Below are positions 55,364 to 58,536 of a DNA stretch of 64,000 bases, one piece after another. The stretch is from Acinetobacter pollinis (lineage in GTDB: Bacteria > Pseudomonadota > Gammaproteobacteria > Pseudomonadales > Moraxellaceae). The stretch covers positions 1 through 64,000 of the forward strand of contig NZ_VTDQ01000010.1 of the NCBI RefSeq assembly GCF_015627175.1, written 5' to 3'. The position numbers and the translations under genes are program-made. The notes under the pieces are model-generated. The model was given only the letters and a program-made list of their open reading frames with translations. It made no database searches and was not told the DNA's origin. How positions within the stretch are numbered: the stretch's first letter is position 1; every line of letters begins with the position of its first letter.

Positions 55364-57253
55364 TTGGCATCAAGTACATTTTCCTATAATCATCAGAAGA
55401 ATTTATTTGTCGCAACAGTCATTTGCTTGTTCGCCATTTTTTTAACCATTATGGTTTTAAATTTTTCTTTTGGTCTCATCGTTTATTATTTAGATCAAGG
55501 TCAATCGATTTGGTGGAATGAGCATAGCCCTGTATTTTTAAGCTGTGTACTATTCATTATGATGATCTCTTTATGTTATGAACTCTATATTTTTAGAGAA
55601 GGTGGTCATTCTTTAGCAAAGCAAATGAGAGCAAGGCATCTTCATGCATTAGAATGTACACCGGAAGAGATTAGAGCTGTAAAATTAACTGAGCAGTTGG
55701 CAGATAAATTTCAGATAGAGATCCCCGCAGTCTATGTATTACCCGATGAAATAGGCGTAAATGCTTTAACTGCAGGAGAAAATAGAAAAGATACAGTGAT
55801 TATTTTAACTTGGGGTGCCTTACAGAACCTAGATGAATTAGAGTTATATGGGCTACTCAGTTATGCTTTTAATCAAATTATTAGTGGTGAAACCAGACAG
55901 AATATCCGACTTAAAATTCTTTTTAGTGCCCTGACTAGCTTTAACCAGTGGGGAAGCAAAATTGCCCGAAGAGGATTTAAACCCTACCGTGGTAATGAGA
56001 AAAATAAATTTGAAACTGTATTGGTCGCAGTTGGCGGTATCATCTGGCTGATGGGGAGTTTAGGCCTTCTTATTTCTAGGTTGGTAAAGTTTCTTACCCT
56101 TTCAGGAAGAACGTTCAAAAATGATATTCATACTCAAGCATTAATAGAAAATAATACCAATTTACAAACATTACTTAGAATCTATGTGCATCATGCTGGT
56201 TCTCAAATTCATAGTTCGTATTCTGAGTCAATCGCTCATATGTGTTTTGCAAATTCATTAAGCCCTCAAAGTTGGTTAAATATTCATCCAAATATTGAAA
56301 GAAGAATTTATAGGTTAAATCCAAATGTGCTTCAAGAGATACAGCTAGAAAATTTAAGAAAAGTACAGCTACAACCTTTATTGGGTTTATTTAAACCATT
56401 TGGTGATGAACAAACAGAAATGAATATTTCATGGATGCCACCTCAGCCATTGCCGTTGATTCGTTTAACACCCATGGGATTTCCATCTAAAGATGAAATT
56501 AGACCACTGAATCCTTCAGTAAGAAAATCTATAAAACAGCCTGAACTCGTTAAGCGAGCATTGCAAACCAATACAGGTGCAAGAGAAGTACTTGTTGCTG
56601 TACTTATGATTAGACAGTACAAAGAATTTATACCAAAAAATGCGTTAGTGAGTCATGCTATTGTTGATGCTTTATTGGGCATCGATGCTAGATTACATGT
56701 ACAAATATTTCTAGATGCCTGTGATACATTAAGCACAATGCCACAGAGTATAGCTAGACAGTTCTTAACTAAACTTGCGCAGATTGCTCAATCTGATGGT
56801 AAAATTGGCCTATTAGATGCATTGTTATTAGATAAAGTAAAAAACCAATTAAATTTACTACCTGTACATATGCCTACTGCTTATGATGATATTCAATTTA
56901 ATATTGTTCGTTTAGTCGATGCTCTAGTGTATATCGATCAGATAGATATAGAAAATAGTCTTAGTCGTAGAAATAAAATTATTCAACAGCTAATCTCTGA
57001 AAAAGAGGTATATAAATATGAATTTGTCTCCGACGAGCATATCGATTTTGGAAATATATTGCATTCTATATCTGGGCTTTTATTGAGAGACCGATTAAAA
57101 ATACTTGGTATTATAGAGCATTCTATTTGCAGTGATAGGGTAATGACTCAAGATGAGTTAGATGTACTGGCATTATTGTATTGGCGATTTGGATTTGAAA
57201 ATGATGAAATTGTTGAACAAATTTTAAACCAAAATAGTTTAATGATTGTATAG
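55364..57253 (+). CDS. M48-peptidase-like membrane protein without the HExxH site
   Basis: 629 residues; the start is TTG at 55364 with AAGG nine bases upstream. Two N-terminal transmembrane helices (residues 16-42 and 56-76) are followed by a region that reads like an HtpX/M48 core: IPAVYVLPDEIGVNALTAG, then DTVIILTWGALQNLDELELYGLLSYAFNQI. In active HtpX-type enzymes the last segment contains HELAH; here residues 167-171 are YAFNQ, so both zinc histidines and the catalytic glutamate are lost. A further hydrophobic segment lies near 225-240 and the remaining 380 residues are a mostly helical soluble domain that I do not recognise. It may be a structural or regulatory pseudopeptidase. Confidence 0.7.
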   Translation: MASSTFSYNHQKNLFVATVICLFAIFLTIMVLNFSFGLIVYYLDQGQSIWWNEHSPVFLSCVLFIMMISLCYELYIFREGGHSLAKQMRARHLHALECTPEEIRAVKLTEQLADKFQIEIPAVYVLPDEIGVNALTAGENRKDTVIILTWGALQNLDELELYGLLSYAFNQIISGETRQNIRLKILFSALTSFNQWGSKIARRGFKPYRGNEKNKFETVLVAVGGIIWLMGSLGLLISRLVKFLTLSGRTFKNDIHTQALIENNTNLQTLLRIYVHHAGSQIHSSYSESIAHMCFANSLSPQSWLNIHPNIERRIYRLNPNVLQEIQLENLRKVQLQPLLGLFKPFGDEQTEMNISWMPPQPLPLIRLTPMGFPSKDEIRPLNPSVRKSIKQPELVKRALQTNTGAREVLVAVLMIRQYKEFIPKNALVSHAIVDALLGIDARLHVQIFLDACDTLSTMPQSIARQFLTKLAQIAQSDGKIGLLDALLLDKVKNQLNLLPVHMPTAYDDIQFNIVRLVDALVYIDQIDIENSLSRRNKIIQQLISEKEVYKYEFVSDEHIDFGNILHSISGLLLRDRLKILGIIEHSICSDRVMTQDELDVLALLYWRFGFENDEIVEQILNQNSLMIV

Positions 57254-57318: not shown

Positions 57319-58050
57319 ATGAGTGAGCAGCAACAGTCATCAGTACATCATCGTAATATCCTTTCACATTTGGGAATTGATCTTTGGATTCCTAGAGATG
57401 TTGCCGTTGAAGAAAATGATGCGTCTGTTTTTTGGCGTGACCAAGTATCATGTGCTGAAATTAATTTAAATGAAGAAGCTGAATTAAACGTTGAGAGTAT
57501 TTCAATTGAACGAGAAGTGAAGCTTGAAAATATAGAGCCTCAATCTATTATTTCTTTAGAAAAACTAGAAAAACTAGAAAAACTAGAAAAACTAGAAAAA
57601 CTAGAAAAACTAGAAAAACTAGAAAAACTAGAAAAACTAGAAAAACTAGAAAAACTAGAAAAACTAGAAAAACTAGAAAAACTAGAAAAAGAGATAGATC
57701 CTTTTATACTTACCGTATTGGTTTCAGTAAAAAAAATTATTTTTATCAATACATTTGATATTTCTAGCGAAGAGAGAACTTTACTCAATAATATGATTCA
57801 TACACTTGAATTGGTGCAATATGAGTTAAAGTGGCCAATACTTGAAACCTTAAAAGATTCAAATTTTCTTCAGTTTTATTTGGATGGTTTTATCGACGCG
57901 AAATGTAATGAGTTTGAATGTGCTGTTCTTGTAGGAAATAGACCGAAAGGCTTAGTATTTACCTTCAACAAAGAATTTCCATCTTTAAGTCAATTGTTGA
58001 ATAGTGCTCAAGACAAAAGAGATTTATGGGAGTATTGGAAAAGCGTTTAG
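57319..58050 (+). CDS. HolD-like protein (DNA polymerase III psi?) with a LEK-repeat insert
   Basis: 243 residues. The N-terminal RNILSHLGIDLWIPR resembles the tau/gamma-binding start of the DNA polymerase III psi subunit; FILTVLVSVKKIIFINTFDIS and the C-terminal LLNSAQDKRDLWEYWKSV would match its central strand and last helix. E. coli HolD has 137 residues; here an acidic linker and 15 consecutive Leu-Glu-Lys triplets (residues 80-124) are inserted. Because the insert has a three-residue period, it should form one long charged helix rather than a normal heptad coiled coil. The psi assignment is a pattern match by eye and needs a profile search. The gene is 65 bp after the M48-like gene. Confidence 0.5.
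   Translation: MSEQQQSSVHHRNILSHLGIDLWIPRDVAVEENDASVFWRDQVSCAEINLNEEAELNVESISIEREVKLENIEPQSIISLEKLEKLEKLEKLEKLEKLEKLEKLEKLEKLEKLEKLEKLEKLEKEIDPFILTVLVSVKKIIFINTFDISSEERTLLNNMIHTLELVQYELKWPILETLKDSNFLQFYLDGFIDAKCNEFECAVLVGNRPKGLVFTFNKEFPSLSQLLNSAQDKRDLWEYWKSV
57556..57690 (+). repeat. 9-bp tandem repeat, 15 copies (LEK)
   Basis: Fourteen perfect CTAGAAAAA units (57565-57690) preceded by one TTAGAAAAA (57556-57564). The array is in frame, so gain or loss of a unit changes protein length by one LEK without a frameshift. Perfect identity of the units points to recent expansion by slippage. Confidence 0.97.
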
Positions 58051-58089: not shown

Positions 58090-58536
58090 TTAGTTAAGTT
58101 TTGCTTTAACTTTAGCTGATGCAATTGCAGCATCGGCACGTCCGGCTATGATCGGACGTAGAGAATTCATCACCTTACCCATATCTTTCATGCTAGTAGC
58201 ACTTTGATCAGCAATAATCTGATCAATGACAGAATCAAGTTCTTCCTCAGTCATAGCGGCTGGTAGAAATTGAGATAGAATCTCAATTTCGGCTTGTTCT
58301 TTACTAGCTAAATCGTCTCGGCCAGCACCGGCAAAAGCCTTTACTGACTCTTTACGTTGTTTAACTTGCTTCTCAACAATTGCAAGGACTTGATTATTAT
58401 CAAGTTCTATGCGTTCATCGACTTCAATTTGCTTAATTGCAGCTTGCAGACTACGAATAACAGTTACAGTTGCCATTTCTTTAGCACGCATGGCACTTTT
58501 AAGAGCATCAGTAATTTGGTTTTTTAAATTAGTCAT
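58090..58536 (-). CDS. yqeY: YqeY/GatB-tail-like protein
   Basis: 148-residue helical protein of the YqeY family (related to the tail domain of GatB): MTNLKNQITDALKSAMRAKEMATVTVIRSLQAAIKQIE-type start, VEKQVKQRKESVKAFAGAGRDDLA and GKVMNSLRPIIAGRADA. The biochemical role is not established; tRNA-linked functions have been suggested from homology. It follows rpsU by 27 bp, a common pairing. Confidence 0.92.
   Translation of the reverse strand: MTNLKNQITDALKSAMRAKEMATVTVIRSLQAAIKQIEVDERIELDNNQVLAIVEKQVKQRKESVKAFAGAGRDDLASKEQAEIEILSQFLPAAMTEEELDSVIDQIIADQSATSMKDMGKVMNSLRPIIAGRADAAIASAKVKAKLN

Follow-up and report, generated by a model that had tools for sequence, protein, structure and literature searches.

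In E. coli, the psi subunit (HolD) binds the DnaX ring of the clamp loader through its N terminus and links the ring to chi, the subunit that contacts SSB (PMC3197488, PMC3290774). The psi of Pseudomonas aeruginosa, like that of Acinetobacter, has a long disordered region before its core (PMC3197488). The P. aeruginosa region is reported to help bind ssDNA and to have positive residues in a conserved part (PMC3197488), whereas the Acinetobacter linker is mostly acidic. In A. baylyi, psi is reported to be essential and to be longer than E. coli psi (PMC3290774). In A. baumannii, GO593_00140, a homologue of the protein described here, was proposed to be HolD from modeling and knock-down phenotypes; it falls in a cluster with replication genes, and its N-terminal end is long and unstructured (PMC11975115). 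With its long, unstructured N-terminal part and its apparent link to replication, our protein resembles both of these (PMC11975115, PMC3290774).

Tandem repeats are used to type A. baumannii, and the typing schemes include two 9-bp VNTRs, Abaum_0017 and Abaum_0826 (PMC3440325). Of the A. baumannii regions studied in PMC8357709, the gamma/tau gene was the most polymorphic in length, and the Abaum_2396 locus is reported to vary between strains (PMC3440325, PMC8357709). In-frame VNTRs are already known, and one of them, in DnaX, is a typing locus. Among the open-access papers that we searched, we found none that describes psi arrays or the recurrence of different arrays at both tethers of the clamp loader.

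Here, we describe a 9-bp array encoding 15 consecutive Leu-Glu-Lys (LEK) triplets in the probable psi gene of one Acinetobacter genome. We use "the window" for the whole 64-kb stretch of DNA that was analyzed. The window's psi differs from 171 of the 173 psi genes of the genus in having this array. Its repeat size is like that of Abaum_0017 and Abaum_0826 (PMC3440325). Like the strain-polymorphic Abaum_2396, it is a perfect in-frame array in a clamp-loader linker, but Abaum_2396 has a 6-bp Glu-Pro (EP) unit and lies in DnaX (PMC3440325, PMC8357709).

A perfect coding minisatellite

The sequence-only reading had described 15 LEK triplets from a 9-bp array that is perfect but for its first base, and this is what we find. 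The array (residues 80-124) consists of one copy of TTAGAAAAA followed by 14 copies of CTAGAAAAA. Its sole imperfection is that the first Leu codon is TTA and the remaining 14 are CTA. TRF places the array at 57557-57690, with a period of 9, 14.9 copies, 100% matches, and 0 indels, and this is the sole TRF row in the window at the default score. Runs of period 9 reach 125 bases in the window, whereas in 60 shuffles of it they do not exceed 10. At the DNA level, the array occurs once in the genome. It has the properties of a coding minisatellite: perfect head-to-tail units, a period that is a multiple of three, and an open frame.

Table 1. Features at the psi locus (window coordinates)
Feature	Position	Strand	Evidence or remark
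HtpX/M48-like membrane protein gene	55364..57253	+	65 bp upstream of psi
Probable psi (HolD) gene, divergent Acinetobacter type, 243 aa	57319..58050	+	two-part HolD profile match
N-terminal DnaX-binding motif, residues 11-26 (HRNILSHLGIDLWIPR)	57349..57396	+	conservation, HolD profile match
Unconserved linker, residues 43-128 (86 aa, 45 of them LEK)	57445..57702	+	conservation
LEK x15 minisatellite	57556..57690	+	9-bp unit CTAGAAAAA, first copy TTAGAAAAA
Probable psi core, residues 129-243, presumably the chi-binding side	57703..58047	+	pLDDT, HolD profile match
YqeY gene	58090..58536	-	

CTA makes up 11% of the Leu codons in the two neighboring genes that we counted. Given the codon usage of those two genes, the rough probability of choosing 14 CTA, 15 GAA, and 15 AAA codons independently is 9e-18. 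Because this rare codon is identical across the copies, we infer that the repeat arose by DNA duplication rather than by selection on the protein, and that it did so recently.

Could the copy number be an assembly artifact, with the array collapsed or inflated? The host assembly is a draft of 90 contigs (2.75 Mb, G+C about 36%), and in other genomes the DnaX arrays discussed below interrupt the assembly, so that an N gap or the end of a contig falls at the array. Also, in G144 (our label for the genome with the other psi array, which is 137 bp), contig ends overlap by 127 bases at two pairs, so in that genome the array may have collapsed. In the host, however, four pairs among the contig ends that we sampled share 198-199 bases (a fifth pair shares 169), pointing to an assembly word that exceeds the 134 bp of the LEK array. 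Collapse of the LEK array is therefore unlikely. Assembly error had been raised as a concern in the sequence-only reading, and we now consider an artifact of this kind very improbable. We had looked at collapse at k = 127 in particular, as a 134-bp array seemed suspicious, and rejected it because of the four pairs that share 198-199 bases.

We also rejected a genome-wide boom in repeats. In 218 kb of host contigs, TRF shows just one other perfect array with a unit of up to 12 bp and a length of at least 100 bp, and in 257 kb of G144 (some of which, a small fraction, was masked) it shows one perfect array with a unit of up to 9 bp, an 8-bp one. Both samples are made up of contig starts and many small contigs. 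As there are so few other arrays in them, the psi array is not one among hundreds. The other host array is a perfect 6-bp one that encodes PQ x17 in a lipoprotein-like protein (L253 9559-9660, G000:C1). The 8-bp array of G144, ACTCATTA x7.8 (G144:C4, L276 1887-1948), is crossed by no frame of more than 80 aa; its unit is not divisible by three and could act as a switch.

The protein is probably a divergent psi

The standard models gave little help in naming this protein. Pfam's PF03603 (DNA_III_psi) matches residues 139-238 at 15.5 bits, below its cutoff of 22.2, and a search of the host genome with PF03603 found no psi gene. Among 29 relatives, 9 match at E <= 1 (best 9.5e-4). The Pfam model is narrow, because it matches just 4 of the 114 genomes in a sample of the class. 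NCBIfam has no family that matches the window's psi, and PDB sequence searches with the window protein or the genus profile returned no psi. An earlier comparison of a 29-row genus profile to the single E. coli HolD sequence gave a probability of 2.8 over 23 columns.

A comparison of larger profiles matched in two separate parts. We used hhalign with a query profile of 173 genus and 20 family sequences (Moraxellaceae) and a target made from E. coli HolD and five proteins above the Pfam cutoff. The core matched over 88 columns (E = 1.1e-7). Collinear with this, the N-terminal DnaX-binding motif matched over 25 columns (E = 1.3e-5). The two scores (52.2 and 39.7) are above the best of 150 column shuffles (25.6) and above the reversed alignment (15.4). 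Thus, the suggestion from the sequence-only reading that the protein is HolD-like gains support from the profile search that it had proposed, as well as from the reports on the homologues in A. baumannii and A. baylyi (PMC11975115, PMC3290774). Also, the host genome encodes chi (PF04364, 97.5 bits, G000:C36), as do all seven genomes of the genus that we searched.

Structural comparisons were ambiguous. For the core of the window's AlphaFold model, the E. coli psi chains 3sxu_B and 1em8_B lead, with Z (VIA) of 4.5 and 4.1 over 76 residues, and unrelated folds lie within 1 Z. With the A. nectaris model, psi is tied with or slightly exceeded by other folds, uracil-DNA glycosylases among them. Foldseek found no match in the PDB at E <= 0.001 with either model.

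If the protein were not psi, the array would lie in a Moraxellaceae protein with some other function. The subthreshold Pfam match, the lack of a PF03603 hit to any psi in the host genome, the ties with unrelated folds in both models, and the fact that the E. coli neighbor rimI was not seen when downstream frames were listed in 10 relatives would all fit with this. They are outweighed by the match to HolD in two separate parts and by the A. baumannii homologue, which is reported to cluster with replication genes and to model as HolD (PMC11975115). We consider it extremely unlikely that the protein is something else, and its identification as a divergent HolD/psi, which comes from profile similarity, is well supported if not proven.

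The array lies in an unconserved linker

We derived the motif R..L..[LM]G[IV]..W..R from the sequences in this analysis, and it is present at residues 12-26 of the window protein. Within the DnaX-binding motif, R12, G19, and W23 are invariant in 29 sequences. Across 173 sequences, the mean majority fraction is 0.67 in the N-terminal part, 0.28 in the linker, and 0.61 in the C-terminal core. These data bear out the earlier placement of the array between a clamp-loader-binding N terminus and the rest of the protein. In the genus, the linker is 58-107 residues long (median 66, n = 173) and mostly acidic, with a median net charge of -6 (range -17 to +1). The commonest residues in the other linkers are V, E, and P, so an EPV array, as found in G144, fits the usual composition, but LEK does not.

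The sequence-only reading also proposed that the array forms a long charged helix. The AlphaFold model of the window protein does have a helix at residues 87-121, with weak to moderate confidence: the 10-residue blocks across 91-120 have pLDDT of 58, 72, and 65. Residues 37-91 are below pLDDT 50, while blocks across the core (131-240) have pLDDT of 88-96. A long charged helix across the LEK array is thus possible rather than firmly predicted.

A stronger version of this idea is that the array was selected as a rigid rod, a single alpha-helix that fixes the distance from the clamp loader to chi-SSB. The predicted 35-residue helix would suit such a rod, as would the contrast with the array-free linker of A. 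nectaris (residues 34-82), which has pLDDT below 50 and no helix and is predicted to be disordered. A fully helical LEK x15 would span about 67 A. But the pLDDT is just 58-72 over residues 91-120 and below 50 up to residue 91, and long repeats of E, K, and L are readily modeled as helices. Furthermore, the 37 linker residues that precede the array are predicted to be disordered, so the reach would stay flexible, and another species has EPV in the same place. Selection for a rigid rod therefore seems quite improbable to us.

Two arrays among 173 psi genes

We searched 175 genomes of the genus, one per species, with a profile; 173 of them yielded a psi gene, including 169 of 169 good ones, and we scanned all 173 genes for exact tandem runs. 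(In 10 of the 173, our pattern missed the N-terminal motif and the start may be wrong; these were kept in the counts.) Just two have long arrays: the window's (LEK) and G144's (EPV). The other 171 have no long array, including that of A. nectaris CIP 110549, which has the nearest psi to the window's. The next best tandem run is a two-copy repeat of 18 bp. Outside the genus, we examined 20 family members, of many found, with frames of 252-376 residues. They have no long array, and their longest exact run is 17 bases with a period of 6.

The EPV array lies in the same linker as LEK and encodes EPV x15 (9-bp unit, 15.2 copies, 100%). The psi tree requires two gains of an array (50 of the 173 rows, with the linkers left out), and on this basis the LEK and EPV arrays appear to be independent in origin. 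The EPV linker is 59 aa long, which is equal to the array-free A. nectaris linker and inside the array-free range. Because of this equality, the EPV array seems to have replaced linker sequence at constant length.

The two arrays fall within 2 of the 7 species of the A. nectaris clade, versus 0 of 166 others (Fisher p 0.0014), but we drew this clade after seeing the arrays, from a tree of 50 of the 173 rows, so the enrichment is only a hint.

Perfect 9-bp arrays recur elsewhere in the genus. Eleven loci in other genomes (L326-L336) have 9-bp arrays that are perfect or 99% perfect, with 11-39 copies in the longest array of each locus. Some of these arrays are within frames (EVA, VEA, SET), and others are outside. 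We hand-picked the eleven loci from matches to the window protein outside of psi, and they are biased toward three-residue periods. Two of the arrays, in G141 and G068, are located roughly 17.7 kb into their records and, judging from position and name only, may represent Abaum_0017. Unlike the psi array, these two have no frame of at least 100 aa across them.

Arrays in the DnaX tether

The DnaX domain PF12169 was matched in 173 of 175 genomes, and we inspected 70 DnaX loci. These are not a random sample: 29 came from 30 genomes that we picked by hand, 21 were taken from the best-scoring ones, and 20 were chosen partly for cut frames. An exact repeat run of at least 24 bases is present in 42 of the 70 (L345, L347, L349, L352, L354, L357-L367, L372, L376, L377, L380, L381, L386, L387, L392, L394-L404, and L406-L412). 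All 42 arrays share the reading frame of DnaX and are located 25-136 residues downstream of the QEQGFEM motif, which marks the end of domain III. (In four of the 70 rows this landmark was not found, and none of those four has an array.) The sequence around the arrays is poorly conserved up to the C-terminal part, where conservation resumes. The unit is EP in 35 loci, TTD in G005, G009, and G079, VES in G154 and G155, SE in A. nectaris, and SEP in G003. EP copy number ranges from 5 to 23 among the species examined. Because several of the arrays coincide with N gaps or the ends of contigs, array lengths taken from draft genomes call for caution; in G012 (EP), the frame beyond a gap reads differently.

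When up to 3 mismatches are allowed, 15 of the 70 loci contain sites for at least two of the primers for Abaum_2396 or from PMC8357709. In L360 and L365, the Abaum_2396 primer pair is exact and flanks the EP array, so this typing locus is the DnaX array.

The DnaX of the window genome has no array, and this is the one member of the seven-species A. nectaris clade without one. G144 has arrays in both psi and DnaX. With seven species, and with both arrays present in G144, we do not claim that psi and DnaX arrays are complementary.

How the arrays might arise and what they might do

We propose that the N-terminal peptide of psi docks on DnaX while the core binds chi and chi holds SSB, as in E. 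coli. In Acinetobacter, the docking peptide and the core would be joined by a tether of 58-107 residues that is usually acidic and barely conserved, and replication slippage probably turned about half of the window's tether into LEK x15. As the unit is three codons, a change in copy number would alter the tether in steps of three residues and would never shift the frame, which would explain why an array is tolerated in a gene that is reported to be essential in A. baylyi. In another species, the unrelated EPV x15 seems to have arisen in the same tether. The DnaX tether, from domain III to the conserved C-terminal part, would be a similar case, with EP, SE, TTD, SEP, or VES arrays. Because the psi and DnaX tethers have such different arrays, their length and charge, and not their sequence, look constrained, and slippage would provide the raw sequence. 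Overall, it seems likely that psi is a clamp-loader subunit with a tether built by slippage, one whose exact sequence is less important than its length and charge. Within this proposal, we infer the tether's function, slippage as the cause, and variation in psi between strains. Counting against it, ordinary tolerance of linkers would explain rare arrays in psi (2 of 173) without any special role.

A second possibility, which goes back to the sequence-only reading, is adaptive tuning: array length would be a contingency trait whose hypermutability is kept by selection, and variants with shorter or longer tethers would differ in SSB engagement and in replication behavior. The 9-bp unit stays in frame, arrays recur in the same psi linker and in DnaX, and DnaX EP copies range from 5 to 23 among the species examined, all of which favors this idea. 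Also, E. coli chi mutants are reported to show more local rearrangements (PMC8092217), so changes in the tether could feed back on slippage. Yet 171 of 173 psi genes have no long array, so relatives manage without one, and the chemically different LEK and EPV fill the same place; together, these disfavor a specific need for LEK. We give adaptive tuning a small chance of being correct.

A broader form of this idea covers both tethers, that of tau (to the polymerase) and that of psi (to chi-SSB). These might have been repeatedly rebuilt as slippage-prone arrays under diversifying or tuning selection on length, as hypermutable length dials of the replisome whose settings perhaps alter slippage itself. 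This is speculative, and we think it unlikely.

Returning to a tether that is built by slippage and constrained in length and charge, a subunit that is reported to be essential in A. baylyi carries linker sequence that could change in length by slippage without a frameshift. If this is tolerated, then the psi and tau tethers specify little beyond length and charge. The arrays provide a natural series of tether lengths: LEK or EPV in psi, and EP x5 to x23 in DnaX. They also offer a direct way to ask whether slippage-prone repeats in replisome genes work as adjustable parts or are carried along neutrally. For Abaum_2396, used routinely as a marker for typing, the question becomes one of replisome mechanics.

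Neighboring genes

The gene upstream of psi, which is also found upstream of psi in A. nectaris, encodes an HtpX/M48-like protein with matches to NCBIfam HtpX models of up to 6.8e-14, under the cutoff. It is presumably co-transcribed with psi. HExxH is missing from the window's protein, which has LLSYAFN where relatives have LLSHEFNK, and is present in 0 of the 45 loci that have a long upstream frame (some of these frames are other genes). Perhaps it is a conserved pseudoprotease beside psi.

Downstream of psi, 9 of the 10 named loci that we inspected have a putative hydroxyacid dehydrogenase-like gene. In the window and in A. nectaris (L191), psi is followed by YqeY on the opposite strand.
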